DNA of 48,778 bases from an uncultured Muribaculaceae bacterium (GTDB taxonomy: Bacteria; Bacteroidota; Bacteroidia; Bacteroidales; Muribaculaceae). Positions within the stretch are counted from its first letter, which is position 1, and every line of letters begins with the position of its first letter. The stretch is taken from assembly GCA_947179295.1 (NCBI GenBank), contig CAMXAZ010000014.1, positions 1-48,778 on the forward strand, in the 5' to 3' direction. Below, piece by piece: positions 1-11,580 of this stretch. A model generated the notes under the pieces. It made no database searches, had not been told where the DNA came from, and saw nothing but the letters and a program-made list of their open reading frames with translations. The position numbers and the translations under genes are program-made.

Positions 1-183
1 GGGCGTACAGTTGCACCGCAGCCACTTACAAGCGACCGAGAGGGCGCGGGAGAGGTGGACACTGGCCGGAGTTGAATACCGGGCTCCGATTGCGGGACCT
101 GTGAGAATCACGAGGGGCGAGGTTGAAGGTTTGCCCGGAACCTTAAAGAGAATGGCTTGAGAGATTGAATTGCTCATACTCAT
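1..183 (-). CDS. Possible N-terminal part of an unknown element protein, cut by the window edge
   Basis: An open frame runs from an ATG at 183 to the window edge (61 codons, beginning MSMSNSISQAILFK). It follows the inverted-repeat region and lies downstream, on the same strand, of a good promoter at 397-428. The stop of a possible 59-codon ORF (191-370, minus) sits 7 bases upstream, which would fit a small operon running out of the window. No family is recognised. The opposite strand is also open here (2-160), so at most one of the two frames is real. The gene direction of the neighbouring element favours this one slightly. Confidence 0.33.
   Translation of the reverse strand, partial: MSMSNSISQAILFKVPGKPSTSPLVILTGPAIGARYSTPASVHLSRALSVACKWLRCNCTP
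2..160 (+). CDS. Possible C-terminal end of an unknown protein (alternative to the antisense frame)
   Basis: A frame open from the window edge ends with TGA at 158-160 after 52 codons. The peptide is rich in Arg and Glu and ends GLPGTLKRMA, which looks protein-like, but no family is recognised. The 20-base inverted repeat at 176-258 follows its stop and could end transcription. It overlaps the minus-strand frame 1-183 completely. Sequence to the left of the window would decide which is real. Confidence 0.3.
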   Translation, partial: GVQLHRSHLQATERARERWTLAGVEYRAPIAGPVRITRGEVEGLPGTLKRMA

Positions 184-258
184 GATTTGTTTAGCATTTT
201 AAGGCAGGGGTATAAAAAGACGGCTGCCATATCCCGTCGCTAAACAAATCATGAGTAT
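176..258. repeat. Perfect 20-base inverted repeat with 43-base loop
   Basis: Bases 176-195 (ending in TGATTTGTTTAGC) are exactly complementary to 239-258. A third copy of the 16-base core TCATGATTTGTTTAGC lies in direct orientation at 377-392. A second inverted pair, GGCTGCCATATCC at 222-234 and GGATATAGCAGCC at 282-294 (12 of 13 matching), interlocks with the first. The arrangement could form a cruciform or a structured RNA, or be a set of binding or recombination sites. Confidence 0.75.
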
Positions 259-396
259 CTCCGAAGAGCTCTAATGAAAAAGGATATAGCAGCCGCTTTA
301 GCTGTGTATATGTATGGACATAAAAAATGCCCGATAAAATGTCGAGCCTATGACCGTGGCTCTCCGGCATGATGTTTCATGATTTGTTTAGCACTG
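196..396. other. Non-coding or small-ORF region between inverted repeat and promoter
   Basis: No gene is clear here. On the minus strand a 59-codon ORF (370 to 191, beginning MPESHGHRLDIL) would follow the promoter at 397-428 with a leader of about 20 bases. On the plus strand a 32-codon ORF (274-372, beginning MKKDIAAALAVY) exists. Neither resembles a known family, and the region may instead be the structured leader of the gene at 183-1. Confidence 0.3.
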
Positions 397-428
397 CAAA
401 TTTACGACAATAAACTTACACTGCCAAA
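397..428 (-). promoter_or_regulatory. Bacteroidetes-type promoter
   Basis: On the minus strand, TTTG (428-425) and TAAATTTG (404-397) are separated by 20 bases, an excellent match to the Bacteroidetes sigma factor consensus. The spacer ends with TTATTGTCG just before the -7 box. The 11-base string TTATTGTCGTA is shared with the divergent regulator promoter region at 11096-11106, suggesting common control. Confidence 0.65.
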
Positions 429-446
429 TATTGGAGGGAGAAAAAA

Positions 447-1043
447 TCAACCATTCGATTTATTAGCAATCTCGTCAAAATAATCCAACATTATCAATCC
501 TCTTCGGCGAGCCTCGATGGCATTTTTCTCGTCAATCTCGCAGGATTCGGTTTCGACCGGCCCTATGTGGATCCTGGGGATAATCTTTGTGAAATCCGTT
601 GGGGCTCCTATTGGCGGGTAGCAGAAAGAGAGTGCCAGCTGTTGGCCGTCGTGCGTGATGGCGAAGTCACCTTGGGTTATGAAGTCAAGACCGAGAGTTA
701 TGTCGCAGTCGGGGTCGGAATTAGGGGAATCATCTATACCGACATTCAGCAGAATCCGGCATCCCCCAAGAACGATGCATATTTCGGCCTCGGCCATCTT
801 TTTCATTCGGGAGATTCCGAATGGAGTTCTGAACATACGTTCGCCGGAGGGCTTCAACATAAGAAAATCGGCGGCGCGTTTTGAAACGATAGAATTATTG
901 CAGCCCGTATCCCATAGCGCACGGATACGGATAGCGTTCGGATTACCCGTCTCTGGAGAACAAAGCAGGATATCCGACACGATGCGTCCGCGATAAAATG
1001 GAAAACGACCTGTGAAAGCGTATGGAGAAGAGTCGGAGTTCAT
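447..1043 (-). CDS. Retropepsin-like aspartic protease 1
   Basis: A 198-residue protein with the hallmarks of clan AA (retroviral-type) aspartic proteases. The catalytic motif ALWDTGCNNS has Asp-Thr-Gly at residues 45-47, and the second conserved motif ITLGLD is at about 115-120, with hydrophobic residues before Gly. Such single-domain proteases act as dimers, each giving one Asp. There is no signal peptide or membrane segment, so a cytoplasmic location is expected. Its start is ATG at 1043, only 4 bases after a TAACTTTG promoter box, implying a leaderless mRNA. It lies downstream of hicA1-hicB1, separated by a terminator-like hairpin. Two paralogues are at 1883-2332 and 2444-3025. The fold assignment is strong; substrate and role are unknown. 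Confidence 0.85.
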   Translation of the reverse strand: MNSDSSPYAFTGRFPFYRGRIVSDILLCSPETGNPNAIRIRALWDTGCNNSIVSKRAADFLMLKPSGERMFRTPFGISRMKKMAEAEICIVLGGCRILLNVGIDDSPNSDPDCDITLGLDFITQGDFAITHDGQQLALSFCYPPIGAPTDFTKIIPRIHIGPVETESCEIDEKNAIEARRRGLIMLDYFDEIANKSNG

Positions 1044-1047
1044 AGCA

Positions 1048-1055
1048 CAAAGTTA
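1048..1055 (-). promoter_or_regulatory. -7 promoter box for retropepsin 1
   Basis: TAACTTTG on the minus strand, followed by TGCT and the ATG. The same TAACTTTGTGCTATG string occurs at retropepsin 3. No well-placed TTTG is seen at -33 here, so this copy may be weaker or need an activator. Confidence 0.5.
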
Positions 1056-1079
1056 TGTATAAATTTCCAAACGGCAGCA

Positions 1080-1124
1080 TAAAAACACCCCCGCCGTGAT
1101 GGGCGAGGGTGCGGCCAGTGCGAA
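1080..1124 (-). terminator. Repeated terminator hairpin T1, before retropepsin 1
   Basis: On the minus strand, CACCCTCGCC (1111-1102) pairs with GGCGGGGGTG (1095-1086) through ten pairs including one G-U, followed by a run of T. It lies 3' of hicB1 and just upstream of the promoter of retropepsin 1. Nearly the same sequence recurs at 2378-2417 and 3062-3095, each time upstream of a retropepsin gene. Confidence 0.7.
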
Positions 1125-1141
1125 CAATGTTAAGGTGTAAA

Positions 1142-1549
1142 TCAAACAAGCTGTAACTGGCTTAATTCTTTGCCGAAAGCGTGGAGCGCCGTTTGGATCT
1201 TCTCGGTAGTTTTGGGAGATGGAGTACGATAGCCGGAGATATACTGCGACAGCTGAGCGGCAGAAACGCCGGTGAGCTTGGCAAGACCTTTGTAGGAGAT
1301 AAGATCTGCGTAGTAGACGAGGAACGACGGCAAATCGTAAGAGAAAGCAAAATTGACATCCTCAAAAGGCTTTCCTTCTTCGATGAAGAAAGCCTTCATA
1401 TCCTCATACTCAGCTTTGAACTCTGCTATAGCATCATTGGCGGTGGGGCCATCGCCATGAACGCCCCAGCCAAGATGATTGTCATCCGGCATATAGGCTC
1501 CGAAAGTGCCGTCTTTGCCGCGTTCGATAAATACTCTTACTGTCTTCAT
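1142..1549 (-). CDS. hicB: HicB-family antitoxin 1 with C-terminal HTH
   Basis: A 135-residue protein. The N-terminal half (MKTVRVFIERGKDGTFGAY, then GDGPTANDAIAEFKAE) has the strand-helix pattern of HicB domains, which fold like a degraded RNase H and bind the HicA toxin. The C-terminal half (about 80-130, LAKLTGVSAAQLSQYISG) is an XRE/Cro-like helix-turn-helix that would bind the operator in the hicA1 promoter and autoregulate the pair. It follows hicA1 by about 73 bases containing a strong hairpin. The order toxin then antitoxin is usual for hicAB. Retropepsin 1 follows. Family assignment is confident; activity as an antitoxin is inferred from the pairing. Confidence 0.87.
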   Translation of the reverse strand: MKTVRVFIERGKDGTFGAYMPDDNHLGWGVHGDGPTANDAIAEFKAEYEDMKAFFIEEGKPFEDVNFAFSYDLPSFLVYYADLISYKGLAKLTGVSAAQLSQYISGYRTPSPKTTEKIQTALHAFGKELSQLQLV

Positions 1550-1596
1550 ATATTATGCTATATATTTCTTTAACAAATTATATTCTGTTTTGGTTG

Positions 1597-1625
1597 TAAA
1601 GGAGGGGCTTTCGCCCCTTCCTTTA
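1597..1625 (-). promoter_or_regulatory. Hairpin spanning the hicA1 stop and hicA1-hicB1 gap
   Basis: On the minus strand TAAAGGAAGGGGC, loop GAAA, then GCCCCTCCTTTA forms a stable stem with a GNRA-type loop. The hicA1 stop codon TAA (1625-1623) is part of the 5' arm. There is no long T run after it, so it could be an attenuator or an mRNA-processing or stabilising structure that sets the toxin to antitoxin ratio. A comparable GC-rich hairpin sits between hicA2 and hicB2. Confidence 0.6.
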
Positions 1626-1811
1626 TTTGATTCCGGCATCTCGAAGGATTGATTTGAGAGTTCCGGGTTTTACATCTTCCGAACCGTGGTTGCTTGTCTT
1701 GAAGTAATTGCCGGTTATCGGTGAGAACCACAGCGGGTGTCCGCTTCGTTGTCGGCCAGTATCATAACATCCGGCCTTTTTGAGTAGCTTGTGGAGTTCG
1801 TTGTATTTCAT
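1623..1811 (-). CDS. hicA: HicA-family mRNA interferase toxin 1
   Basis: A 62-residue protein, the normal size for HicA (YcfA-like) toxins, which have a double-stranded-RNA-binding fold and cut mRNA. It begins MKYNELHKLLKKAGC and has the conserved core SGHPLWFSPITG with His25, and SNHGSEDVKPGTLKSILRDAG near the C terminus, typical of the family. The start is ATG at 1811. A longer frame to 1865 would run through the promoter and is rejected. It is transcribed from a consensus promoter with a palindromic operator at 1836-1866 and followed by hicB1. Confidence 0.9.
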   Translation of the reverse strand: MKYNELHKLLKKAGCYDTGRQRSGHPLWFSPITGNYFKTSNHGSEDVKPGTLKSILRDAGIK

Positions 1812-1835
1812 TGTTCGCTGTTTTGATTTACACTG

Positions 1836-1866
1836 CAAAGATAATGCTAAATTTTTATTTAGCAAA
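1836..1866 (-). promoter_or_regulatory. hicA1 promoter with palindromic operator
   Basis: TTTG (1866-1863), 19 bases, then TATCTTTG (1843-1836) on the minus strand is a near-perfect promoter. Between the boxes lies the exact palindrome GCTAAAT-4-ATTTAGC (1846-1863), positioned to block RNA polymerase when bound. This is the expected site for HicB1 autorepression. Confidence 0.75.
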
Positions 1867-1882
1867 ATTTTCAGGGATTTTT

Positions 1883-2332
1883 TTAGCGAGCCAAAGACGA
1901 ATAGTCCAACGGCTTATTAAGCGGAGGGAACACGATGGATAAAATCAGCTCTCCCGCCTGGTTGTGGGTCAGAGCAAAATCGTGTAGTGATATAATATCC
2001 ATGCCTATTATGATGTCGTGGCCGTCGAAATGGCCCTCAACTACATTCAGCTTTGGAAGCCCGGCACCATTAGGAAGCATTATGGCTATTTGATAAACCG
2101 GCTTGCGGGAAATACCGTTTGTTGAATGGGAATTTATATGGCGAAATGGGACAAGTCTCATCATTGAGGCTAAATCCATGGAAATCATAGAGCGATTGGC
2201 TCCCGTATCCCATAAGGCATTTACGGTTGTACCGGCATCAGAGCTATTGGTCGGGCGCACGCAGCACTCGGTGATAATCATCTCCGGGTGCGTTCCAAGA
2301 TTCTTCGTGTAGGGGAGAAAGGTAATTTCCAT
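1883..2332 (-). CDS. Retropepsin-like aspartic protease 2
   Basis: A 149-residue clan AA aspartic protease-like protein. The motif ALWDTGANRSM places Asp-Thr-Gly at residues 42-44, and IIIGMD at 107-112 is the second family motif. It ends with LSIVFPPLNKPLDY, similar to the LSFCYPPIGAPTDF of paralogue 1. It is the shortest of the three, lacking the C-terminal tail of about 40 residues. The start is taken as ATG at 2332, since the upstream in-frame TTG at 2338 is less likely. A TAACTTTG box lies 17 bases upstream, and the repeated hairpin T2 lies before that. Its stop is about 20 bases from the hicA1 promoter. Role unknown. Confidence 0.85.
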   Translation of the reverse strand: MEITFLPYTKNLGTHPEMIITECCVRPTNSSDAGTTVNALWDTGANRSMISMDLASMMRLVPFRHINSHSTNGISRKPVYQIAIMLPNGAGLPKLNVVEGHFDGHDIIIGMDIISLHDFALTHNQAGELILSIVFPPLNKPLDYSSLAR

Positions 2333-2349
2333 ATGCAAATAATTATCAG

Positions 2350-2357
2350 CAAAGTTA
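2350..2357 (-). promoter_or_regulatory. -7 promoter box for retropepsin 2
   Basis: TAACTTTG on the minus strand, between hairpin T2 and the ATG at 2332. Unlike the other two copies it leaves a short leader. No clear TTTG is seen at -33. Confidence 0.45.
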
Positions 2358-2377
2358 GCTATTATTCCCTAAAATGA

Positions 2378-2417
2378 CACCCCCCGCCGTGATGGGCGAG
2401 GGTGCGGCCAGTGCGAA
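2378..2417 (-). terminator. Repeated terminator hairpin T2, before retropepsin 2
   Basis: Same hairpin as T1: CACCCTCGCC (2404-2395) opposite GGCGGGGGGTG (2388-2378), here with one extra G. Sequence identity to T1 extends at least to the shared GCGGCCAGTGCGAA at the outer side. It separates retropepsin 3 (ending 2444) from retropepsin 2. Confidence 0.65.
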
Positions 2418-2443
2418 TACGTGCCAAATTTTCGAGGAGAAAA

Positions 2444-3025
2444 TTATTGCTTTCTATCAGCAGGGACGGCACGATTCATGATTTTGACGGCATCGAGTCC
2501 GGAGTATATCTTAAGACGCTCACCGCCGTGGCTCAGTGGTACGATTGAGGCTGGAATAGCTACCGGAGAGGCCGTGAAATCAATGATATCGGTGGCGGGC
2601 ATTGTGAATGACAGAGTGATTCCGGAATCGCCTCCTGTTATAGCCAATGTGCCGCGACGGATTAGATTCAATCCGAGGATGACCGAGTAATCGACACCTC
2701 CGACATAACTGTCGACAACGGCACATTTCACCGTTACGATACCACCGCCGGCAACGAAAGACACGTAGGCGAAACAAGCTAATGAGTCGGCAGAGCCGGT
2801 AAGGCCACGCGCAGAAGGGCCTGGCGCCGTTTCGAGCTGCAAGGCATCTGCCAATTGTTTTGAGATTATACACACTTCGGCGCCGGTATCCCACATTGCA
2901 TGAGCCTCGGCAGCAATCACACCTTTTAGGTTCATGAGCGTGATTGGCGTGTAAAGCTTTGACGGCTCGCCTGATGAATGAGCCGTCAGTGCAAAGCAAG
3001 AATGATTGTCGTTAGTCATATCCAT
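2444..3025 (-). CDS. Retropepsin-like aspartic protease 3
   Basis: A 193-residue clan AA aspartic protease-like protein. AMWDTGAEVC gives Asp-Thr-Gly at residues 46-48, and VILGLN at 115-120 is the second motif, with Asn where the paralogues have Asp. A tail of about 50 residues follows, containing SPVAIPASIVPLSHGG. No signal peptide is present. The ATG at 3025 lies 4 bases after the TAACTTTG of a full promoter, so a leaderless mRNA is expected. It follows hicA2-hicB2 exactly as retropepsin 1 follows hicA1-hicB1. The three proteases differ widely outside the motifs, so they are old duplicates or separately acquired. Substrate unknown. Confidence 0.85.
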   Translation of the reverse strand: MDMTNDNHSCFALTAHSSGEPSKLYTPITLMNLKGVIAAEAHAMWDTGAEVCIISKQLADALQLETAPGPSARGLTGSADSLACFAYVSFVAGGGIVTVKCAVVDSYVGGVDYSVILGLNLIRRGTLAITGGDSGITLSFTMPATDIIDFTASPVAIPASIVPLSHGGERLKIYSGLDAVKIMNRAVPADRKQ

Positions 3026-3029
3026 AGCA

Positions 3030-3062
3030 CAAAGTTAAGCAAATTTACGGAACATAAGCAAA
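3030..3062 (-). promoter_or_regulatory. Promoter of retropepsin 3
   Basis: TTTG (3062-3059), 21 bases, TAACTTTG (3037-3030) on the minus strand. The -33 TTTG overlaps the T run of hairpin T3, so the terminator of the upstream hicAB unit and the promoter of the protease are fused in one compact cassette. Confidence 0.7.
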
Positions 3063-3095
3063 ACACCCCCGCCGTGATCGGCGAGGGTGCGGCCA
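3062..3095 (-). terminator. Repeated terminator hairpin T3, before retropepsin 3
   Basis: CACCCTCGCC (3089-3080) pairs with GGCGGGGGTG (3073-3064) on the minus strand and is followed by TTTT. It differs from T1 in its loop by one base. It sits between the hicB2 stop (3121) and the retropepsin 3 promoter. Confidence 0.72.
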
Positions 3096-3120
3096 CTCTT
3101 TGGCTTGACGTATTGCAAAA

Positions 3121-3519
3121 CTAAACAAGCGACAGAGATGCCAATTCAGATGCGAGGCGGTGTATGCCTGTTTCAATTTTTTCGAGCTGAGCGTCCGAGA
3201 TTGGTGTATCACCTTTCTTGTACTGGCGCATAAGTCCGGGATTGATGCCGAGATAGCGTCCGAGCGCACTTACATTGAACATGGAGTAATATTCAAATAG
3301 CGAAGATATGTCAAAGTGAAATTCGACCTCGGCAGTAAGTTCGGCCGGAACCTTCTGGCCGCGCTCGATGTAATCACTGCTTACCTCCTCAATGGAGTTA
3401 AAGAAATCTTCTTTTGCCTCCTTGACGGTGTCGCCGGTGCCGATGAGAGTGCAGTGTTCTCCATCGGTGTTATATGCGATATATGTACCGTCCGACTGTT
3501 TTTCAATGCTTACTTTCAT
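3121..3519 (-). CDS. hicB: HicB-family antitoxin 2 with C-terminal HTH
   Basis: A 132-residue protein with an N-terminal HicB-type domain (MKVSIEKQSDGTYIAYNTDG, then GTGDTVKEAKEDFFNSIEEV) and a C-terminal helix-turn-helix (VSALGRYLGINPGLMRQYKKG, about 83-105). It ends SELASLSLV, matching the KELSQLQLV end of HicB1, so the two antitoxins are paralogues. It follows hicA2 after 74 bases with a GC-rich hairpin, and is followed by T3 and retropepsin 3. Expected to neutralise HicA2 and repress the operon through the inverted repeats at 3811-3868. Confidence 0.86.
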   Translation of the reverse strand: MKVSIEKQSDGTYIAYNTDGEHCTLIGTGDTVKEAKEDFFNSIEEVSSDYIERGQKVPAELTAEVEFHFDISSLFEYYSMFNVSALGRYLGINPGLMRQYKKGDTPISDAQLEKIETGIHRLASELASLSLV

Positions 3520-3563
3520 ATTAGAGTAGGTGTTATGGATTAATACCTGAGTTTGTTAAATTG

Positions 3564-3593
3564 AGAGGGAGGGGAGCGCCCTCCCCCTCTTGG
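3564..3593 (-). promoter_or_regulatory. GC-rich hairpin between hicA2 and hicB2
   Basis: On the minus strand AGAGGGGGAGGG and CCCCTCCCTCT can pair around a short CGC loop with one bulge. No T run follows. The position matches the hairpin at 1597-1625 in the other hicAB pair although the sequence differs, suggesting a conserved function such as attenuation. Confidence 0.5.
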
Positions 3594-3776
3594 TTAGAAT
3601 CCGATTCGCTTTTTCAGAGCCATCATCAGGCCTTTGCGAACCTCTTGTGAGCCGTGCCGCTCTACTAAGATTTCATCGCCGGTTTCGGCGTTGTAGTAGC
3701 GGTCATGTTTTTTGCCGTGCTTTACAAGTCTGTAACCGTGAGCCTCGGCAATCTTAATGAGTTCTTTCCATTTCAT
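3594..3776 (-). CDS. hicA: HicA-family mRNA interferase toxin 2
   Basis: A 60-residue HicA-like toxin beginning MKWKELIKIAEAHGYRLVKH. The conserved GKKHDRYYNAETG carries the likely catalytic His24, and VERHGSQEVRKGLMMALKK is the usual C-terminal block. The start is ATG at 3776; the longer frame to 3842 overlaps the promoter. It has its own consensus promoter (3805-3835) inside a large inverted repeat. It is distinct in sequence from HicA1 (62 residues), so the two pairs are unlikely to be a recent duplication. Confidence 0.9.
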   Translation of the reverse strand: MKWKELIKIAEAHGYRLVKHGKKHDRYYNAETGDEILVERHGSQEVRKGLMMALKKRIGF

Positions 3777-3804
3777 GTCAAAGAGCTTGTTTAGTTTTGC
3801 ACTA

Positions 3805-3835
3805 CAAAGGTATGACATTTTTGTAATATAACAAA
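3805..3835 (-). promoter_or_regulatory. hicA2 promoter
   Basis: TTTG (3835-3832), 19 bases, TACCTTTG (3812-3805) on the minus strand, an excellent match to consensus. The predicted start point leaves a leader of about 25 bases before ATG 3776. One arm of the inverted repeat 3811-3868 covers the whole spacer. Confidence 0.72.
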
Positions 3836-3868
3836 GTTTCAAGACGAAAATATTACATAAATGTCATA
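3811..3868. repeat. 19-base inverted repeat at hicA2 promoter
   Basis: TATGACATTTTTGTAATAT (3811-3829) and ATATTACATAAATGTCATA (3850-3868) are inverted copies with 18 of 19 bases matching and a 20-base loop. One arm overlaps the hicA2 promoter. Two operators for HicB2, allowing DNA looping, is the simplest reading. As RNA the same sequence forms a long hairpin after the antirepressor stop (3875) and may reduce read-through. Confidence 0.75.
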
Positions 3869-3874
3869 TTTTTT

Positions 3875-4387
3875 TCAGAACAGGCAGGGTTGCGGGTTGA
3901 GCCGCTCTGCCCGGAGCTTGCCGAGGGTTTCCTCGGCTTTCTTGCGTCGGCCTTTAGCCTCCTTCTCGTCAGAGATAGCCGAATTGATCTGTTGCAGCAG
4001 TTCAATTTCGGCGTTGTTGGTCTCGATGGTGCGCCGCATTGAGCCGGTGAAATGCTCATAAAGCACGTCATAGCACTCGCGACGGTAGCGAGTGACCGCC
4101 TCACGAGCTTCCGGGGCGACCTTTCCGGGGTTGATGGTGGCGAGCCAACCGTAGACATCGCGGAGACGAATGCAGTACATCTCGCGCTCCTTTTCATCGG
4201 CGGCAACTGAGGTGATAATCGCCCCAGTTGAAGCGAAAAATTCGTCTTCCTGGAGTTTGGCACGTTGAGCTTTTGCGTCAATGCCGATTGCCTCGCAGAT
4301 TGGTTTGATAGGTACGAAGATTTCTCCGTCACGGTCAACGGTTACGATGTCGACGCCGTTGATTTTGGAGATTAGCTGTTGTGGCAT
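3875..4387 (-). CDS. Phage antirepressor, P22_AR_N type
   Basis: A 170-residue protein. Residues 1-115 match the N-terminal domain of P22-type antirepressors: LISKINGVDIVTVDRDGEIF, VPIKPICEAIGID, then AKLQEDEFFASTGAI and a YCIRLRDVYGWLATINP block. The C-terminal 45 residues are charged and helical (EKEAKGRRKKAEETLGKL), a likely coiled coil for oligomerisation. Such proteins inactivate phage repressors or act as Bro-type DNA binders. It is the last gene of the long minus-strand operon, overlaps the end of the preceding ORF by 16 bases, and is followed by the hicA2 control region. Supports a phage or phage-satellite origin for the element. Confidence 0.82.
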   Translation of the reverse strand: MPQQLISKINGVDIVTVDRDGEIFVPIKPICEAIGIDAKAQRAKLQEDEFFASTGAIITSVAADEKEREMYCIRLRDVYGWLATINPGKVAPEAREAVTRYRRECYDVLYEHFTGSMRRTIETNNAEIELLQQINSAISDEKEAKGRRKKAEETLGKLRAERLNPQPCLF

Positions 4388-4758
4388 ATTCTTGTATTGA
4401 ATTTTGATGAGTATTTCTTACAGGAGAATTGTTTAGGGGAGATGGAACGCTTGGAGAGCTGACATCGGGGCGGGTGGGCTTGATAGTGACAGCAACAGTC
4501 GCAAGCAGGCTGAATCTGGCCGCAAAGGTCTCTCGAAAGTTTGGCTAAATTAGCTTTTAAGGATAGGACTGGCGAGGTAGTCATAGGAGGCGGAGCGAGC
4601 CGAACCTTATCGAACGAGAGAGCGGCTTTTGCGGCCACCTCGCGGAACTCATCGAAAGCCGCGGCTACGGCCTTCAGCTCTGGCGGCATTGAAGCGAGTG
4701 CCAGGGCTGAGGCGTATGCCGAGATATATGATTTGTGATAGTGCTTTGTCCGGATCAT
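4372..4758 (-). CDS. Hypothetical protein of the replication operon
   Basis: A 128-residue frame starting MIRTKHYHKSYISAYASALA. Residues 10-60 are Ala-rich and helical; the C-terminal part is unusual, with a Cys/His cluster (CDCCCHYQ) and many Ser and Lys. It starts 2 bases after the stop of the upstream gene and overlaps the antirepressor start by 16 bases, as expected for a coupled operon. No family is recognised, and the odd composition of its second half leaves some doubt about the true frame. Confidence 0.5.
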   Translation of the reverse strand: MIRTKHYHKSYISAYASALALASMPPELKAVAAAFDEFREVAAKAALSFDKVRLAPPPMTTSPVLSLKANLAKLSRDLCGQIQPACDCCCHYQAHPPRCQLSKRSISPKQFSCKKYSSKFNTRICHNS

Positions 4759-4760
4759 GA

Positions 4761-5201
4761 TTACTTGAGTGGCGCGGGGTTTTCGTCGGCCCAGAATGCA
4801 CCCTTCGAGAATACTGAGAAAAGAACTACGGAGAACATCAAATCGATGCGAGAGGAAGGCTCTGCCTTGCGCTGCATTTCTTCGACCTCTTTACTCATTG
4901 CCGACATCCTTTCTGCTTTTGAGCTGAATTTGGCGGCAGGGTTGTCATCGGCCCACTTAGCTCCGGAGACGAATAGTGTAGCGAAGAGGAGGCCTGACAT
5001 CGGGCTTTTGCGCATGATGTCTTCGGTTTCTTTCAGGACTGCGGCTGCGATTTGAGCTGCACGTGCCTTTTCGTCGATAGTTGGTTCATTTGCCTGTTCA
5101 GAGACGTCTTCAAAGGCAACATCTTCGGCCATGTCATGGAGACGGTTCTTGCGGTCAGAGCGAAAGAACGGCGAGTGGTAGTGGAAGGGATTGGAACACA
5201 T
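4761..5201 (-). CDS. Hypothetical protein, tandem segment pattern
   Basis: A 146-residue protein without recognised family. It holds two similar segments: MSGLLFATLFVSGAKWADDNPAAK (about 67-90) and LMFSVVLFSVFSKGAFWADENPAP (about 121-145), each a hydrophobic stretch followed by WAD(D/E)NPA. The segments could be short membrane or amphipathic helices; the link between them is charged. An internal ATG (MAEDVAFEDV, residue 24) is an alternative start. Located in the minus-strand operon between the small ORF at 5221 and the ORF ending at 4372. Confidence 0.6.
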   Translation of the reverse strand: MCSNPFHYHSPFFRSDRKNRLHDMAEDVAFEDVSEQANEPTIDEKARAAQIAAAVLKETEDIMRKSPMSGLLFATLFVSGAKWADDNPAAKFSSKAERMSAMSKEVEEMQRKAEPSSRIDLMFSVVLFSVFSKGAFWADENPAPLK

Positions 5202-5220
5202 AGTTTTTTTGATTTATCTA

Positions 5221-5448
5221 TTATTTATTACGTTTAGTTTGTTTCTTCTTACGTTTATGGACTCGTGGAGAGTCGGGAGGTATGATAGTTATAAAGTGTT
5301 GCGGGACACAGAAAGAGTTGCGGTCGACGGAGATAAAAGCGCCGGTTTCACCAATTGAGAACAAATCGACTTCAACGCCTTTCTGTATGTGGAGGCTGCC
5401 GATTGTCAGGGAGCGCAGCAGCACGGCCTTTGTAGGGTTCGGGATCAT
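5221..5448 (-). CDS. Small basic hypothetical protein
   Basis: A 75-residue protein beginning MIPNPTKAVLLRSLTIGSLHIQ and ending in a strongly basic tail (HKRKKKQTKRNK). Its ATG overlaps the stop of the ATPase gene (ATGA at 5448-5445), showing translational coupling. The predicted strands in the first 60 residues and basic tail would suit a small nucleic-acid-binding protein, but this is only inference. No family recognised. Confidence 0.6.
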   Translation of the reverse strand: MIPNPTKAVLLRSLTIGSLHIQKGVEVDLFSIGETGAFISVDRNSFCVPQHFITIIPPDSPRVHKRKKKQTKRNK

Positions 5449-6275
5449 GCGTAGAAGGCAAAAACATCTTTGCCGCGGTTATAATCGCGGAGATATTCGA
5501 GTGCACAGTAGAACATAAAGTTATCGAACATGCACCACTGGGCGGGATTCCAATCGGAGAACATGTAGTGGCCAAGATAGTCTCTTACGGTATTGGATTC
5601 GCTGAAAAACGAAGAGAAGTCCAGAAGGCTGAAACGTCGACGGAAGCCACCATCTCTGCGGATATCAGCAATAGACAGATTGGAGACAAGCAGCATGTGA
5701 GGGCTCCTTTCGAAAGGAATTATCAAGGGCTCTAAACACTTGCGATTTATGGTCCAATCATCAGTACAAAGACTGTATAGATGTTTAAGTGTCGTCCTTA
5801 TATTCAAGTCGTCAACAATCAGAAGTTGTGTCTGATTGGTTACGTCTGATAACCAAAACACATCGTGGAACCTATAATCAAGCTTAGTTGTATTACAGTA
5901 CTGAGCAATAGCATTACAAAAAAGAGATTTGCCGTTTCCCATAGTCTTTTCATGTTCATTTACACATATAAATGAGCGAAGGCGTGTAGGGTTGTGCTTG
6001 GGTAATTTATTGCAGAGCATGTAACCGATAGCCGCCAGCTTCTTAACCAGAGAGCCATTTGTCGAGCTTGTAGCGTCAAGGAATCTGTAGAAGTCTGATT
6101 GGTCGCCAATGAATTCGGCAGGAGAACTAGCCGGAGTGAATTCACGGTCGAGGACAACGTCATTCGGCCCAGGAATAAGGGTGCGCGATATGCGCATTTC
6201 GCCGGGCAAGAGGAGTGACACGGCGCAGTTCCGGAAGAAGAAGCGAGCGGCGAGTGTGGGGTCTGCGGTATTCAT
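5445..6275 (-). CDS. Stand-alone SF3-like helicase/ATPase, paralogue of the primase-helicase
   Basis: A 276-residue protein with a Walker A-like MGNGKSLFCNAIAQY (about 108-122), Walker B-like LLIVDDLN, a sensor-like HMLLVSNLS and an arginine-rich FRRRFSLLDF. It aligns by eye along its length with the C-terminal helicase domain of the 1006-residue primase (7280-10300): MFSDWNPAQWCMFDNF against FFDDWDEEQWNLFDNL, and LSDVTNQTQLLIVDD against LSGVTKATRNIFIDD. It lacks primase and zinc domains. It is coupled to the upstream lipoprotein gene (4-base overlap) and the downstream small ORF. It may be a helicase partner or regulator for element replication. Confidence 0.75.
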   Translation of the reverse strand: MNTADPTLAARFFFRNCAVSLLLPGEMRISRTLIPGPNDVVLDREFTPASSPAEFIGDQSDFYRFLDATSSTNGSLVKKLAAIGYMLCNKLPKHNPTRLRSFICVNEHEKTMGNGKSLFCNAIAQYCNTTKLDYRFHDVFWLSDVTNQTQLLIVDDLNIRTTLKHLYSLCTDDWTINRKCLEPLIIPFERSPHMLLVSNLSIADIRRDGGFRRRFSLLDFSSFFSESNTVRDYLGHYMFSDWNPAQWCMFDNFMFYCALEYLRDYNRGKDVFAFYA

Positions 6276-6634
6276 TTCGATATAGAATTTAGTGAGTAGA
6301 TGTTGTCGTTTTCGTGGTCGAACACCTGAAAGCCGATGATCGAGGCGTATTCATCGCCGCGCTCATGGGCGACGTTGAGGCAGAGGTCGACCCGGTCAAA
6401 TTTGCCGTTGAATGAGTCGGCGATAGAGCGGATCGTGGCGGCAGAGGCACGTTCCGCGGAAGCAAGACGAATGAAATATCCGTCGGGGTGCTGCTCAATG
6501 ACGGAGAACCCGGCAGGGATTGACACAGAGGCTACGGCTGCATGAGACTGAGCCGATGAGCCTGAAAGTTCGTTGTTAGGCTGAGAGCAGCCAACCAGAG
6601 CGAGGACAAGTAGAATGGGAAGTTTGTAAACCAT
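6272..6634 (-). CDS. Small lipoprotein within the replication operon
   Basis: A 120-residue protein with an SPII signal: MVYKLPILLVLALVGCSQ, with lipobox LVGC and Cys at residue 16. The mature part includes VIEQHPDGYFIRLASAERAS and a domain ending in FDHENDNIYSLNS. It would be anchored to the inner or outer membrane. It begins 11 bases after the stop of the upstream gene and overlaps the ATPase start. A lipoprotein in a replication operon suggests surface exclusion or superinfection immunity, but there is no direct evidence. No family recognised. Confidence 0.72.
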   Translation of the reverse strand: MVYKLPILLVLALVGCSQPNNELSGSSAQSHAAVASVSIPAGFSVIEQHPDGYFIRLASAERASAATIRSIADSFNGKFDRVDLCLNVAHERGDEYASIIGFQVFDHENDNIYSLNSISK

Positions 6635-6645
6635 ATTTGAAAAAA

Positions 6646-6996
6646 TTAGAATAGTTCAGCTTGTAGGAGCGACGCCTCGCCATTGCGGATGTCAGCTCGT
6701 GTTTCTTCGAGGAAATAATCGAGATATAGAAGCATGAAGCCGATTGCATATAATTTGGCTTCGCGTTGAGAACGGAAGCGACCGAGAGCAGCGATAGGCT
6801 GTCGCACAGATATACGTCCGTTGGCCCAGTGAACGAGATAGCCATATACCCAAGAACCGTCAGGCAGAGGCGAAGAGAAGATAGTGACGGTTTCATTTCG
6901 GCCTGCGGTGACACACCAGGTTGACTGGGGCTTGATCGGTTCGGCATCTTCGAGGTAGTCGATCTTAAGATACTCGTAACGATTTTTGACATTCAT
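6646..6996 (-). CDS. Hypothetical protein of the replication operon
   Basis: A 116-residue protein with start chosen at ATG 6996 (MNVKNRYEYLKIDYLED); a longer frame to 7095 is rejected because it would overlap more deeply with the upstream gene. It contains TIFSSPLPDGSWVYGYLVHWANG, a beta-rich segment, and RFRSQREAKLYAIGFMLLYLD, a helix, then an acidic end. The start overlaps the DnaA-like gene by 32 bases. Family not recognised; the compact alpha/beta pattern resembles small accessory proteins of Bacteroidales mobile elements. Confidence 0.65.
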   Translation of the reverse strand: MNVKNRYEYLKIDYLEDAEPIKPQSTWCVTAGRNETVTIFSSPLPDGSWVYGYLVHWANGRISVRQPIAALGRFRSQREAKLYAIGFMLLYLDYFLEETRADIRNGEASLLQAELF

Positions 6997-7267
6997 ACAT
7001 TTTAGAGACTTTATCGAATTTTTCTCGGAACAACCTGGAAAGCCGGAGAGCGTCATTGGCGTTATGCCTCGATTTGAGAATGGCACATCTACCACGATTC
7101 AGAGTCCATGAGATAACCTCGTCTGTGGCTCCATCGCGGGAAAGCAGAAGGATTATGAGCTGCCGAGCTTCAACTGCAGGCCATTCCCGCGTCCGGGAAA
7201 GAATTGTCGATTTCGCCACTCCTGTGGCTCTACTGACCACAGAAATTGCTATTTCTTTGTTATCCAT
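6965..7267 (-). CDS. DnaA domain IV-like small DNA-binding protein
   Basis: A 100-residue protein resembling the C-terminal DNA-binding domain of DnaA: an initial helix (ISVVSRATGVAKSTILS), a basic second part (RTREWPAVEARQLIILLLSRDG) in the position of the DnaA basic loop and PRQIAMYL-like helix, a helix-turn-helix (ATDEVISWTLNRGRCAILKSRHN) and a final helix. There is no AAA+ ATPase domain. It starts 12 bases after the primase-helicase gene. It could recognise the element's origin or compete with host DnaA. The similarity was judged by eye and needs a profile search. Confidence 0.6.
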   Translation of the reverse strand: MDNKEIAISVVSRATGVAKSTILSRTREWPAVEARQLIILLLSRDGATDEVISWTLNRGRCAILKSRHNANDALRLSRLFREKFDKVSKMYECQKSLRVS

Positions 7268-7279
7268 ATAAGAAGTAAA

Positions 7280-10200
7280 TTAGAATGGTTTGAGTTCTTT
7301 TTCTTTTGCCGGCGAGAATACTTTAAAATATTCGGCCCCACCGGATTTGTCATCTGAGCCAATAAAAGACTCGTCAGGATGCAGCGGTTTCCAATCGGAG
7401 TAATAGAGCTTTTCGGCGTTAGGACGGTCGATATTGAAATCATAACCTTTGAACTTGCAGTAGGCTTGAATTTTCCCTTTGAAATTTGTTCGAGTAACGC
7501 CATGCCCGGCAGGGCCGCCGGCATACTCAAAGAAAGACGCCACAAGGTCAGCACGTTTGATTCTATCGTTAAGATGAGAGCCAGACGGATCGAAATATTC
7601 CTCGGCCCACTGATACAGGACTTCAGACATTTCCTGCCTAAGAGTTCGCAACTCAATATTCTTCATAGGCGGCGGCACAGCTCCGGCACCCTCTCGCGCC
7701 CAACAGTTCTCGAATGACCGAAAATAGTACATGACGCACTCGGCCATAAGATTGTCAAAGAGGTTCCACTGCTCTTCGTCCCAATCATCGAAGAACATGT
7801 GATGAAAATCATCGACGAGAGTATGATCGGGATTATACCATGTCGAGAACTCCATGTAGATGATACGGCGTTTTGTGGCGTTTTCATTGGCTTTGTTGAT
7901 CGCATGGTTGGTAGTAATCAGTATTTTTGGAGAGTCCTCAAGCGGGATACAATATCTGTCCTTGCCTTTGGGATTGACATACATCGGACCGGTGACCATC
8001 GCAAAAAGGTTCTCAAAGGCAAAATTCGTCTTCACGTCATCGATAAAGATATTTCGTGTCGCTTTAGTAACTCCGGAAAGGAGGAACTCATCATCGCGTT
8101 TCATCTGCTTGCCGTCAATAAAAAATTGTGAGACAACATGGCCGATAGCATTCCCTACTATAGACTTGCCGGCACCTCCATGACTTTGGCCAACCTCCGA
8201 CATTAGATGATCCTGTATAATTACGGCTTTACGCTCGGAGGCGTATTTATAATCACAGAGCAAAAATCCGAGCGTCGTGATTTTATTGACGATGTGATGA
8301 ATCCATTCAAACATTTCAGCTTCGGATAGATCACGTTCAGCGTCATGGGCAAAAAAATTATTGGAAGTGTTTATGAGGAAGGAAAGAAACTCACACTTTG
8401 CAGCCTCCGGCGTATATTCAATATAAAAATTATCACCGACTTTTTGTATATTCTTGATTATAGGTACTCGTCGAAAATGCCGTGGGACTATCCGGCTGCG
8501 CCATACCTGACTGATAGGCTTGTTTGGCGTAATAGCGTTAGCGGTAATCTCAACCTGGCCATTATTATAATACGTTCTTTGAACTCCAGATGTGAAATTA
8601 TTAAAATCATCGGATATGATAGCGAGGTTTTCGAGCTGTTTGTCGGCCATGATTGTAGCAAGCCGCTTGGCAAAGAATTGCAAAACAATATCAGTCTTAC
8701 AATTCGCATTGATGTAATCTCGGATAAAATCACGAACCTCATATGGTGCGACACGATCAATAATGCCATCATCAATACGGATAAACTCATAACCTGTAGC
8801 GGCCTCGTCACTGTTACGCAAACGATGAAAACCACTGGCCGCAAGGAAACGGAAAGCTTCGACATCGTTAAATTCGACCTTGTCTTCGCCTTTTGATGTT
8901 TGCGTAATCGAATATATATCCGTAGCCGAGGAATATCGGCTCATAGGCACGAGAGTACCATTTTCGGCCTTATACCTGATATTGCCAATCTTGAAAGTAT
9001 CAATCCCGGTCAAACGGTCTTTATGAATTTCATAGAACGTCTGAACATCATTCAAAGACCAGAAATCACGAATTTTAGTATCTGATTCCTCTGTGATTTT
9101 ATGGATATTGAGCCATGTTCCATGACCATCATGAGAGTTCATAGTGCGCTCTATATCGTCCATCAGTTCAGACTCTCGCCCAAGCAGAGATCCACAAAGG
9201 AGGTCATCGACTCCTTTGTCTCCATGCTCATTCTCATTTACATGTCCCCACCAGATATTTACAGACAAACCGATGGTGTTAAAGGTTTTCATATACTGCC
9301 TATACTTTATGACAGCTTTTGAGAATGAATTAGGACGTTTATCAGCGCGATCGCCGACGATGATTTCTCGATGTAGATCGTTCCAGTCCGCATCCATGAC
9401 AAGCACTATATTAGCAATCGAGCATACTTTGGCGATATCTTGAATGTCTTGCAGAAGACCTTCCTGTTGAGAACCGAAGTTATTAATTCCCTGTATGCCG
9501 ATTGATAACATGCCGTGTTTGCATGCCTTTTCCGCCTTTTTCTCGCCTTCCTGAAGAAATAGAGTGTCAATATGGGTTTTGCTCTTATACAGACGGCGGA
9601 TCTTCTCTGGGATATAAACTCTACAAGAAGCTCCGGCCGGAGTCTGGTATTTCATCTCCTTGCCGTCAGAACTACGATGTAAAGCAGGGTTAGACCAGCG
9701 TACACGCACGTATTGGCGAGGCTTTGCAGCTCCCTTAGGAGTAAACATCATAGGGCGCCCCGTCAGATCATAATAATAAATCAGCATTTCATCTCCGGTC
9801 TCGTCCGGGATGAAAGACTCGTTTACCTTGCCCTTGCGGAATGGAGAGCGGAACAGTTCTTGTCCCCCCTCGACAATCGAGGCCATAACGTCAGCCTCGG
9901 AGAGGCCTGACGCTTCGAGCTGCTGTCGGAGAAACGATGATTTATTCGACTTGACAGCGGCCTCGATAGACTGCTCGCGCTGTCGCTCTTGCGGAGTGAT
10001 GACGATACCACCCTGTCGGGCGGTTTCTTCGAGTGCATGGAGGAAATCGGTGTCAAGGTTTATGCCTGAATAGTGAGCCACGGCGGCAATGGGGCCGGAG
10101 AACCCTTCGCCGCAGACCCAGCACTTTGCGCTGTTAAAGCCCTTTTTGCGGCTGACGTTGAATTTCATCTTTCCGCAAAACGGACACTCTACATCCTGCG

Positions 10201-10300
10201 AGACTTTATGGAGGTTGCACCCCGGAATGAATTGTCGAATATCGAGGTCTTTGACACGCTGCACCTCCCATTTACTGTATTTATGAGTATCGGGATTCAT
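7280..10300 (-). CDS. Primase-helicase (CHC2 zinc finger, TOPRIM-like, SF3 helicase)
   Basis: A 1006-residue replication protein. A CHC2-type zinc finger has Cys39/Cys42 and Cys60/Cys63 (VECPFCGKMKF, then AKCWVCGEGF). A TOPRIM-like/DUF3854 region at about 240-310 has LFLQEGEKKAEKACKHG and the acidic IVLVMDADWN. The C-terminal SF3/D5-like helicase has Walker A SHGGAGKSIVGNAIG (about 705-718), Walker B NIFIDDV (about 752), sensor ILITTNHAI and RRIIYMEF. It would synthesise primers and unwind DNA for element replication. The start ATG overlaps the stop of the LuxR-type gene (ATGA at 10300-10297). Common in phages and plasmids of this phylum. Confidence 0.9.
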   Translation of the reverse strand: MNPDTHKYSKWEVQRVKDLDIRQFIPGCNLHKVSQDVECPFCGKMKFNVSRKKGFNSAKCWVCGEGFSGPIAAVAHYSGINLDTDFLHALEETARQGGIVITPQERQREQSIEAAVKSNKSSFLRQQLEASGLSEADVMASIVEGGQELFRSPFRKGKVNESFIPDETGDEMLIYYYDLTGRPMMFTPKGAAKPRQYVRVRWSNPALHRSSDGKEMKYQTPAGASCRVYIPEKIRRLYKSKTHIDTLFLQEGEKKAEKACKHGMLSIGIQGINNFGSQQEGLLQDIQDIAKVCSIANIVLVMDADWNDLHREIIVGDRADKRPNSFSKAVIKYRQYMKTFNTIGLSVNIWWGHVNENEHGDKGVDDLLCGSLLGRESELMDDIERTMNSHDGHGTWLNIHKITEESDTKIRDFWSLNDVQTFYEIHKDRLTGIDTFKIGNIRYKAENGTLVPMSRYSSATDIYSITQTSKGEDKVEFNDVEAFRFLAASGFHRLRNSDEAATGYEFIRIDDGIIDRVAPYEVRDFIRDYINANCKTDIVLQFFAKRLATIMADKQLENLAIISDDFNNFTSGVQRTYYNNGQVEITANAITPNKPISQVWRSRIVPRHFRRVPIIKNIQKVGDNFYIEYTPEAAKCEFLSFLINTSNNFFAHDAERDLSEAEMFEWIHHIVNKITTLGFLLCDYKYASERKAVIIQDHLMSEVGQSHGGAGKSIVGNAIGHVVSQFFIDGKQMKRDDEFLLSGVTKATRNIFIDDVKTNFAFENLFAMVTGPMYVNPKGKDRYCIPLEDSPKILITTNHAINKANENATKRRIIYMEFSTWYNPDHTLVDDFHHMFFDDWDEEQWNLFDNLMAECVMYYFRSFENCWAREGAGAVPPPMKNIELRTLRQEMSEVLYQWAEEYFDPSGSHLNDRIKRADLVASFFEYAGGPAGHGVTRTNFKGKIQAYCKFKGYDFNIDRPNAEKLYYSDWKPLHPDESFIGSDDKSGGAEYFKVFSPAKEKELKPF

Positions 10301-10857
10301 GAGAACAGGTTGTTTTGAGAGGCATAGCGGACAAATTCAGCCCTGGAGTGAATGTTGAGACGTTGATACGCATGACGAATGTGATTGTGGATTGTATGTG
10401 GAGAGAGGCACAAGCGGACTGCGATATCATCAATAGAAAGTCCGTTGAACCATAATCGTAGCACAGGAATTTCTGCCGCCGAGAGTTTGTGGTCGAACTC
10501 TGGGCGACATATCACTCTCTCATGGCGACACTCGCCCCGGAGAGGGCATGGAACAAACTCAAACGAGCAGCGGCAGGTGTCAGAGAAATCCGGGATATTG
10601 TCGAGCTGCGCAAAGTTGCAGCGGATAAAACGACAGGCGAGTCTGTATCGGTAATAAGACCGGTTCAGAGCGCACCCTTTATATTCTGCACAAAGCGCCT
10701 CATAAGCCTTTGGGTAGAAAGTAGAGATGTGATCAATCAGCTCGTCGAGGATTTCTGAATCCGACTCACGCAGCTTGTCGATAGAGGTATCGGGGCGCCG
10801 ATACCACACCTCACCCTCGTAGGCGAAAAATTCTGTATTTGTTAATGACCTATCCAT
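10297..10857 (-). CDS. LuxR-type HTH regulator of the element
   Basis: A 186-residue protein. The C-terminal part (about 123-182) is a LuxR/GerE helix-turn-helix: LSAAEIPVLRLWFNGLSIDD, IAVRLCLSPHTIHNHIRHAY, then QRLNIHSRAEFVRYA. The N-terminal part is Cys-rich in the middle (CRCSFEFVPCPLRGECRHE), possibly a metal site. No receiver domain is present. It is the second gene of the operon, 10 bases from the small upstream gene and coupled by ATGA to the primase, so it likely controls or times replication gene expression. Confidence 0.82.
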   Translation of the reverse strand: MDRSLTNTEFFAYEGEVWYRRPDTSIDKLRESDSEILDELIDHISTFYPKAYEALCAEYKGCALNRSYYRYRLACRFIRCNFAQLDNIPDFSDTCRCSFEFVPCPLRGECRHERVICRPEFDHKLSAAEIPVLRLWFNGLSIDDIAVRLCLSPHTIHNHIRHAYQRLNIHSRAEFVRYASQNNLFS

Positions 10858-10867
10858 GTCAATTTAA

Positions 10868-11077
10868 TCAATTTGTGATATTTTCAAAAATGTTTTCGCC
10901 GACTGCTTCCGTAATTTTGTCCCGCCAAACGACCTCAATTTGGCTCCGGCCTTTTCGCCAGTCATAGAGAACGCTCCGGGATTTCTGACATAACGAGCGA
11001 ATATCACGCGACTTAGCGGCTCGTTCCTTTGGATTGAGCGAGCGGAGGTAAGCGTCGAGAGCTTCATTTGCGGTCAT
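10868..11077 (-). CDS. Small HTH-like DNA-binding protein, first gene of operon
   Basis: A 69-residue, mostly helical, basic protein (MTANEALDAYLRSLNPKERA, then DIRSLCQKSRSVLYDWRKGR). The segment SRDIRSLCQKSRSVLYDWRKG has the spacing of a helix-turn-helix recognition unit. It starts 126 bases from the divergent XRE gene with a perfect palindrome between them, and is followed by the LuxR-type gene. Probably a Cro/excisionase-like control protein. No exact family recognised. Confidence 0.65.
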   Translation of the reverse strand: MTANEALDAYLRSLNPKERAAKSRDIRSLCQKSRSVLYDWRKGRSQIEVVWRDKITEAVGENIFENITN

Positions 11078-11085
11078 ATTCTTGG

Positions 11086-11122
11086 AAAAGTTAAATTATT
11101 GTCGTATTTTTACGACAGCAAA
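11086..11122 (-). promoter_or_regulatory. Divergent control region with palindromic operator
   Basis: The exact palindrome TGTCGTA-4-TACGACA (11100-11117) sits between a -7-like TAACTTTT (11093-11086, minus) and a TTTG at 11122-11119. The spacing of 25 is longer than usual, so promoter calls are tentative. TTATTGTCGTA at 11096-11106 recurs in the promoter at 397-428. Likely bound by the XRE protein at 11203 or the small HTH protein. Confidence 0.6.
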
Positions 11123-11202
11123 GTAACAAAGAAAAATCAAAACTTAAACTATTTGTGAACTGCATTCGCATTTAGTTTAATTATCTTTAACATTTGCAGA
11201 AT

Positions 11203-11580
11203 ATGAAACATCTCGGACAACTGCTCAAAAAGCACATAGAAACCAACAACTTAAAGAAGCGTGACGTATCAGCCGCCGCGGGAATCACCTCTAACTATCT
11301 GTCAACACTCTTTAACAAAGAGACAATGGATTGTGAGCTGTGGGAGAAATTGTGCTTGGCAACCGGGATAAATCCGGCAGTCGCCTTCGATGTGCCGTTG
11401 TCAAGCAACAAAAGTTGCTCAGATATATATGCGCAGACCGTTCTCGGGCCTGCGACAGTTACCATCGGGGCAGAACAGAAAACGCTCCTTGACCTACTTG
11501 CGGAAAAGGAGCGTTTGATACAGGTTCTACTAGCCGCCTCCGGCCTTAAAATCGGAACAAAAACAGAACAAACCAAGTAA
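11203..11580 (+). CDS. XRE-family transcriptional regulator
   Basis: A 125-residue protein. Residues 1-50 form a Cro/C1-type helix-turn-helix (LKKRDVSAAAGITSNYLSTL); the C-terminal part ends in a helical LLDLLAEKERLIQVLLAASG, a likely dimerisation coil. The start is ATG 11203 (MKHLGQLLKKHIETNN) rather than the upstream TTG at 11194. It is the only regulator transcribed rightward, divergent from the replication operon, the typical place for a phage-like repressor. A strong terminator follows at 11667. Confidence 0.82.
   Translation: MKHLGQLLKKHIETNNLKKRDVSAAAGITSNYLSTLFNKETMDCELWEKLCLATGINPAVAFDVPLSSNKSCSDIYAQTVLGPATVTIGAEQKTLLDLLAEKERLIQVLLAASGLKIGTKTEQTK

Follow-up and report, generated by a model that had tools for sequence, protein, structure and literature searches.

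The closest described relatives of the locus considered here are the HicAB modules, type II toxin–antitoxin (TA) systems with which it shares a toxin of the HicA_toxin family, an antitoxin (HicB) with a C-terminal helix–turn–helix (HTH) domain, a toxin gene placed first and, as described for HicB operators in the consulted part of a HicAB review (PMC11594946), a dyad in the promoter. The locus is an array of two hicAB pairs and three genes for retropepsin-like proteases on contig C14 (CAMXAZ010000014.1) of an uncultured Muribaculaceae bacterium; the window, as the analysed DNA is called below, is this entire contig of 48,778 nucleotides (nt), and handles beginning with L, G and C denote loci, genomes and contigs. 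The array differs from HicAB as described in that the 5' end of the hicAB mRNA complements a segment at the hicB stop codon, of which the passages drawn on from PMC10865869 and PMC11594946 make no mention.

Such complementarity has precedents elsewhere. The hok mRNA folds back on itself and phage P1 makes the antisense RNA c4; in these, in icaR and in the present operons alike, a 3' segment of the mRNA complements either that mRNA's 5' end or the place where its translation begins. Pairing between the 5' and 3' untranslated regions (UTRs) of the icaR mRNA has been described (PMC3868564, excerpt). What sets the present case apart from icaR and hok is that the operon is a type II hicAB, that the arm at the stop codon lies inside a stem loop, and that the arrangement is known from sequence.

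The proteases, too, have described counterparts. The Rickettsia conorii enzyme, Pseudomonas RimB (PMC11957791, excerpt) and eukaryotic DDI1 are likewise single-domain DTG proteins of retropepsin fold, whereas those of the window are phage-borne and show 9-22% identity among the structural matches listed. A protease gene likewise stands beside a TA pair in the case of the caspase MaOC1 and its ParDE-like partner pair (PMC7935541, excerpt), but the window proteases are of a different class and are known here from their genes and one model. A homologous protease is shared with the DUF5678–retropepsin pair of phages and host-order genomes, although the window array has no DUF5678 gene, and there is a weak likeness to the PADLOC candidate PDC-M08B, matched by protease 1 at E 0.0022 but, with a threshold of 0.01, by neither of the other two. 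In a literature search with most subscription journals outside its scope, retropepsin was not found together with toxin–antitoxin, aspartic protease with HicB, or toxin–antitoxin with fold-back inhibition. In the portions consulted, an account of HicA contexts (PMC10865869) has no protease or peptidase in its main text, the HicAB review (PMC11594946) mentions no protease, antisense or secondary structure, and a review of bacterial 3' UTRs (PMC7821165) mentions neither HicA nor hok; the sole word match for DUF5678 is, judged by its title, on an unrelated subject.

An earlier reading of this DNA (the original prediction) proposed the retropepsin as a stable third component of HicAB that might control HicB. 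The reading favoured here, with a probability of about 0.68, is that hicAB operons and retropepsin genes are separate cargo sharing a prophage site, and that hicAB would be under double control.

Retropepsins and hicAB as neighbours

The array comprises the following features:

3594-3776, minus strand: toxin gene hicA2 (PF07927, 40.4 bits; ATG start, the reading frame could begin upstream)
3121-3519, minus strand: antitoxin gene hicB2, HTH-type by alignment (33% identity to HicB1; matches a hicB profile that was built with hicB2 in it)
3066-3102, minus strand: T3, terminator hairpin of hicAB2 (inverted repeat, fold)
2444-3025, minus strand: protease 3, retropepsin-like (Asp_protease_2, 30.7 bits; own TAACTTTG box, 4 nt upstream of its ATG)
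2381-2417, minus strand: T2, in the gap from protease 3 to protease 2, probably left over from a hicAB 3' end (37/37 nt identical to T1)
1883-2332, minus strand: protease 2, retropepsin-like (Asp_protease_2, 26.4 bits; model pLDDT 94.7; fold matches)
1623-1811, minus strand: toxin gene hicA1 (PF07927, 46.8 bits)
1142-1549, minus strand: antitoxin gene hicB1, HTH-type (HTH_3, 29.6 bits)
1086-1111, minus strand: T1, terminator hairpin of hicAB1 (fold)
447-1043, minus strand: protease 1, retropepsin-like (homologous to proteases 2 and 3; own TAACTTTG box at 1048-1055)

The array occupies 3776-447 of the minus strand and, behind the antirepressor gene, is transcribed in the order hicA2-hicB2, protease 3, protease 2, hicA1-hicB1, protease 1, and the open reading frame list and the sequence confirmed the order, strand and frames first given for it. 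HicA1 (46.8 bits) and HicA2 (40.4 bits) both exceed the Pfam cut-off of 27, and each toxin gene has an antitoxin gene downstream; HicB1 has an HTH_3 domain above its cut-off, while HicB2 has no Pfam match above cut-off and is classed by its 33% alignment to HicB1 alone.

That the hicAB pairs adjoin intact retropepsins, as originally proposed, is borne out by motifs, profile matches and the model of protease 2. Alignments place the DTG motif and a second hydrophobic-hydrophobic-Gly motif of family A2, clan AA, in all three proteins, protease 3 having GLN where the others have GLD or GMD. Proteases 2 and 3 score above the Asp_protease_2 cut-off in Pfam and protease 1 below it (E 0.008), the latter being 34% identical to protease 2 and 30% to protease 3 with its DTG present; no further Pfam domain was found in the three. 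Searched against the PDB, a profile from 53 protease relatives finds retroviral proteases and DDI1, with a best E of 1.5e-6. A structure model, made for protease 2 alone and as a single chain, has a pLDDT of 94.7 and the retropepsin fold, and its top structural matches (probability 1.00) include the R. conorii retropepsin 5c9f, which we take to be the enzyme named APRc, and human DDI1 3s8i. The family profile also matches SecA tails weakly, and a phage retropepsin at L046 5869-6429 (+) has a C-terminal tail matching the ends of E2-type and PDC-S12 profiles.

By sequence, hicAB and protease appear to be separate transcription units, because each hicB–protease gap (95 nt from hicB2 to protease 3, 98 nt from hicB1 to protease 1) holds a terminator-like GC hairpin with a T run (T3 and T1, respectively) and then a separate TAnnTTTG box, which we take to be the -7 box consensus, 4 nt before the ATG of the protease. 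The 37-nt identity of T2 to T1 includes the right arm of the hicAB1 stem, and T2 is probably a relic of a hicAB 3' end, comprising that arm and the terminator, although it could be a recombination joint. Allowing up to three mismatches, the T pattern occurs within the genome only at T1, T2 and T3. An integron-type (attC) nature of these repeats was ruled out, T1 and T3 folding as terminators at hicAB ends, as was tandem duplication of a hicAB–protease unit, HicB1 and HicB2 being 33% and the three proteases 20-34% identical.

Across genomes the co-occurrence of the partners is low. The host family has the protease in 5/198 genomes and HicA in 55/198, and none of the four other family genomes with the protease has a HicA match on the protease contig, contig ends in these drafts limiting the comparison; two have no HicA match and two have HicA on other contigs, and one of the four, G105, has a long-frame protein (open frame 418 amino acids, aa) that is probably not the same kind of protease. 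In the window's own genome, two more hicA genes lie on contigs without a protease match. Across the host order a protease match was found in 23/393 genomes and HicA in 142/393, neighbours being read from retrieved loci (16 of the 29 protease matches; four belong to this genome and nine, of long frame (231-460 aa), were left out). Counted from the other side, the protease lies in the flank of 5/77 phage hicB loci, same-family repeats such as L212-L218 included, and within 1 kb in two; it is absent from 59 hicA loci of other genomes, a selection from the listed matches covering about 1.3 kb downstream, some shortened by contig ends. Among 21 DUF5053 loci taken as control, hicAB lies in the flank of three and the protease in that of two.

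Partners of the protease were counted on 79 contigs from all sources after removal of repeats and edge cases, which took out six viral contigs that were near duplicates and three whose protease lay at an edge; the G105 match is also absent from this count. Viral contigs gave 68 loci in a second scan and four, partly overlapping, in a first, the neighbour scan leaving out L032, L035 and L051 (repeat contigs of L028, L031 and L029), and L142 having no protease match. A hicA or hicB match lies within 1 kb in 5/79, and a DUF5678-like gene lies at most 120 nt from the protease in 62/79 (viral 49/60, genomes 13/18, window 0/1). Among those 62, hicA occurs within 1 kb in one (L077, with no hicB match), and among the 17 without DUF5678, hicAB does so in four, namely the window, L031, L036 and L041. 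Three of the DUF5678-like small proteins were tested against Pfam, one scoring above cut-off (36.0 bits), one 22.7 against a cut-off of 23.2 and the third giving no match, and the remaining assignments were made with a profile from these three. The window array has no match to a DUF5678-like gene, directly upstream of a protease or elsewhere. The DUF5678-like gene and retropepsin are a widespread phage gene pair in their own right (L029, L030, L017 and many of L039-L093).

Of the earlier claim, the adjacency recurs in three other phages but a stable third component is not supported (5/198, 5/79, 5/77): co-occurrence across genomes is not stable, the count revealed no enrichment of retropepsins beside hicAB (2/77 phage hicB loci adjacent), and the hicAB–protease trio is not supported as a rule, the recurrent adjacency leaving some link conceivable. 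Those three phages have three geometries, with hicAB upstream of, divergent from or downstream of the protease: L031, the same DNA as L305 and from Hallella multisaccharivorax DSM 17128, is arranged hicAB-protease-protease; L036, the same DNA as L304 and from uncultured Prevotella sp. RUG759, has the two divergent; and L041 has the protease first and then hicAB. Further searches gave no relatives among plasmids with protease 1, one partial match (to protease 3) among phage records, no confirmed match in a last viral scan with protease 3 relatives, and two confirmed matches in a genome scan with L036 and L031.

Both hicAB types, and proteases 1 and 3, occur in relatives without the other partner adjacent. 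L220, syntenic after the antirepressor, has an hicAB1-like operon, a terminator and then a gene labelled exonuclease-like by eye from its sequence, with no protease; L242 has the antirepressor, an hicAB2-like pair, a stretch that fits the 29-base T pattern exactly and then another gene, and its locus lacks a protease. Protease 1 has its nearest relative in G006 (L023), where a DUF5053 operon precedes the gene in the order antirepressor, T-like hairpin, small gene and DUF5053, T-like hairpin, protease, an orphan hicB1-like gene without a HicA match lying 8.4 kb away. The nearest relatives of protease 3 are in C12 and G099, without hicAB in the pieces examined. The protease tree, which has several long branches and a bootstrap that had yet to converge, joins protease 3 with C12 and G099 (100/93) and protease 1 with G006 (99/94), and leaves protease 2 unplaced. 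Independent cassettes are favoured because L220, L242, G006, C12 and G099 show the partners apart and the co-occurrence counts are low.

Complementarity between the ends of hicAB transcripts

The elements concerned are the following:

3806-3873, minus strand: large dyad with arms 3806-3829 and 3850-3873 in the promoter region of hicA2 (inverted repeat I1; candidate HicB operator)
3785-3805, minus strand: 5' arm, in the hicA2 mRNA leader (inverted repeat I3, 21 nt, 95%; complements 3110-3130)
3110-3130, minus strand: 3' arm, at the hicB2 stop codon (inverted repeat I3)
1845-1864, minus strand: dyad TGCTAAAT-N4-ATTTAGCA before the hicA1 -7 box (candidate HicB operator by its presumed role)
1836-1843, minus strand: hicA1 -7 box TATCTTTG, read from the sequence
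1817-1833, minus strand: 5' arm, in the hicA1 mRNA leader (inverted repeat I10, 17 nt, 88%; complements 1135-1151)
1135-1151, minus strand: 3' arm, at the hicB1 stop codon (inverted repeat I10)
1120-1129, minus strand: further segment, complementary to GCGAACAATG at the start codon of hicA1 (10/10)
1114-1161, minus strand: stem GCCAGT/ACTGGC around the 3' arm (fold; compensatory changes in relatives)

In both window pairs the hicA leader is complementary to the hicB stop region, with different arm sequences, and among other loci the arms likewise vary while complementarity is retained. A first test on phage operons gave scores of at least 10 in 51/69, compared with 286/2760 mismatched pairings. 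Among 116 HTH-type operons, duplicates having been removed by leader sequence, the best downstream complement of the leader lies at the hicB stop in 67 (viral 45/66, family genomes 18/37, order genomes 4/13), against a uniform expectation of 9% and controls of 10/116 for direct repeats and 104/570 for the leaders of other loci. For the 70-nt stretch at the hicB stop, 49/116 score at least 12 against 0/2320 shuffled, and a duplex energy of -14 or better is reached by 66/116 own pairs and 111/1160 swapped ones. Of ten hicA genes without a detected HTH-type HicB, nine were scored and one exceeded 10; this is L036, which does have an HTH-type HicB that the script overlooked. Complementarity is therefore above chance and kept despite sequence change, the transcript ends being predicted.

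The positions of the arms are those of predicted transcript ends, the 5' arm beginning 3-4 nt after TAnnTTTG in 36/66 and 0-6 nt after it in 51/66, and a terminator-like hairpin following the 3' arm in 58/67 (control 15/67). The 3' arm lies within a stem at a score of at least 8 in 22/57, compared with 80/684 swapped pairs. In ten operons with LSQ-type hicB ends the stem is fully paired in 6/10 against 18/90 swapped, and it shows C:G/T:A and A:T/G:C exchanges, several, by eye, at synonymous hicB positions. Stem plus terminator folds with z between -2.5 and -4.7 in the window's hicAB1 and hicAB2, L220, L242 and L276.

A second segment matches the hicA start codon; among hicAB1-type operons the match scores 10 in four cases and 8 in one more, and overall 6/57 reach 8, compared with 6/684 swapped. 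The two leader matches run in the same order in the leader and at the 3' end and so cannot form one continuous duplex, but may be alternative pairings. Upstream, a promoter dyad scores at least 8 in 34/110, against 23/550 shuffled.

The complementarity suggests, as far as sequence can, hok- or icaR-like fold-back control of the mRNA of a type II toxin–antitoxin system. It is an evenly balanced question whether, in the phages and chromosomes of Bacteroidota, HTH-type hicAB operons form hybrid TA systems that have, besides the HicB protein, a stem-loop at the hicB stop antisense to the 5' end of their own mRNA. Such a hybrid would work either by fold-back in cis or through a processed small RNA antitoxin in trans, and in this prophage the interleaved retropepsins may have been added as a loose third layer.

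None of the Rfam covariance models matched window 1-12000 at an E of 1 or better. A leader–3' complementarity at every promoter was ruled out with 403 other promoters from loci L028-L242, which gave 19 complements of at least 12 (two of them the window hicAB over again, in L099, and four of DUF5053 type) against 12 direct repeats. Operons of a small gene and a DUF5053-like gene have leader–3' complementarity like that of hicAB (L023 (G006) 3040-3530 (-), L226, L228, L229 and L234). An orphan hicB at L282 (G006 C104 11336-11941) has an hicAB1-type promoter and 11 nt of matching arms without hicA.

The prophage setting

One further gene adjoins the array:

3875-4387, minus strand: P22_AR antirepressor gene (E 9.6e-34; phrog_524)

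Upstream of the array the contig carries primase-like and regulator genes, together with a divergent HTH gene and a tRNA-Ser, before passing into chromosomal genes (release factor 3); 3' of protease 1 come a leader element and a gene truncated by the contig end. Judging from gene content, we read window 1 to about 12.5 kb as one prophage end, because of the antirepressor, primase-like and regulator genes here and because the same genome's fourth protease has phage genes for lysis and head next to it. That protease (C12:12389-12970) stands behind phage amidase, lipoprotein-like and head-protease genes, and no hicAB was found in the 20-kb piece searched.

In the leader-type element at window 176-395 (-) one sequence of 16-20 nt occurs three times, once within the leader, once in antisense orientation and once at the following gene's start codon, and a terminator-like stretch intervenes. 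The element folds with a minimum free energy (MFE) of -70.6 (z -5.4). It has no Rfam match and resembles the arrangement in c4 antisense control of phage antirepressors. Its 21-base motif recurs at L005 7165, 8373 and 13540 and in L303, and the DNA at L005 7165 has the same plan with a different repeat sequence.

Rival readings and significance

In the favoured model the region beside the antirepressor would be a landing site for self-contained accessory cassettes of two kinds, HTH-type hicAB operons and single-gene retropepsins, each kind with its own TAnnTTTG box and each hicAB pair with its own terminator, as seen in the sequence. These would have been gained separately, the alternation coming about since retropepsins sit behind hicAB terminators, with T2 as a left-over hicAB terminator. 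The retropepsins are probably homodimeric enzymes that act independently of HicAB, their substrate being a protein of phage or host with no relation to HicB. Dimers of HicB would repress at the promoter dyad, and the mRNA 5' end would pair with the antisense segment at the hicB stop just before the terminator, hiding the hicA start on full-length mRNA or marking the mRNA for decay. Full-length hicAB mRNA would thus make little HicA; in variants, the 3' end would be lost or a processed 3' antisense RNA would act.

Considering whether the array is instead a tripartite module, the retropepsin would cleave HicB, or be restrained by it, and phage attack or induction would free HicA. The adjacency in the window and three other phages would fit this, as would the T2 relic before protease 2, the hicAB-terminator-like stretch before the L036 protease and a caspase-type protease that, in the excerpt consulted, cleaves the antitoxin of the ParDE-like pair beside it (PMC7935541), but such a module seems improbable given the lack of enrichment in the family, reverse and partner counts, the varying geometry, the separate promoter boxes and the closest relatives of proteases 1 and 3, which have no adjacent hicAB. 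Several observations do weigh against separate cargo: the proteases of L041, L031 (two genes) and L036 cluster together in the tree (support 95/64), and hicA or hicB within 1 kb is commoner without DUF5678 (4/17, window included) than with it (1/62). At L036 5833-5915 (+), 83 nt before and at the protease start have their match in L031, in its hicAB terminator and promoter region, and are possibly another hicAB relic before a protease, though the L036 hicAB is divergent; together with T2, this stretch suggests that these proteases once stood directly behind a hicAB.

Double control, for its part, has to contend with the 49/116 HTH-type operons in which the best match lies elsewhere than the hicB stop, with the weak fold of L268 (z -1.1, one of six) and with arm mismatches of which only 7/34 are G-U. 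It is conceivable, if unlikely, that the arms are instead paired DNA operators for HicB, closing a loop of about 650 bp, as HicB, with its HTH, could bind near +1, and related HicB proteins seem, by eye, to have similar arms. Yet a separate promoter dyad, above chance and in the window unlike the arms in sequence, is already present; the 5' arm lies near the -7 box and a terminator-like hairpin follows the 3' arm, as transcript ends would; and the 3' arm is in a stem more often than swapped pairs are, this stem being kept by compensatory changes in a small set. That the repeats, which flank both genes, are the ends of a mobile or invertible hicAB segment is very improbable, since the right arm extends over the hicB stop codon and the arms vary strongly in sequence from locus to locus, and no hicAB flipped relative to its own promoter box was noticed, in the course of work without a systematic count.

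The preferred reading of separate cargo and double control corrects a tempting three-part HicAB–protease interpretation and implies that the neighbours of phage accessory genes need co-occurrence tests. Hallella multisaccharivorax DSM 17128, a cultured type strain with a hicAB-protease-protease array, would allow tests of both questions. The complementarity also directs attention to a layer of RNA in a type II TA family that is commonly presented as under protein control.

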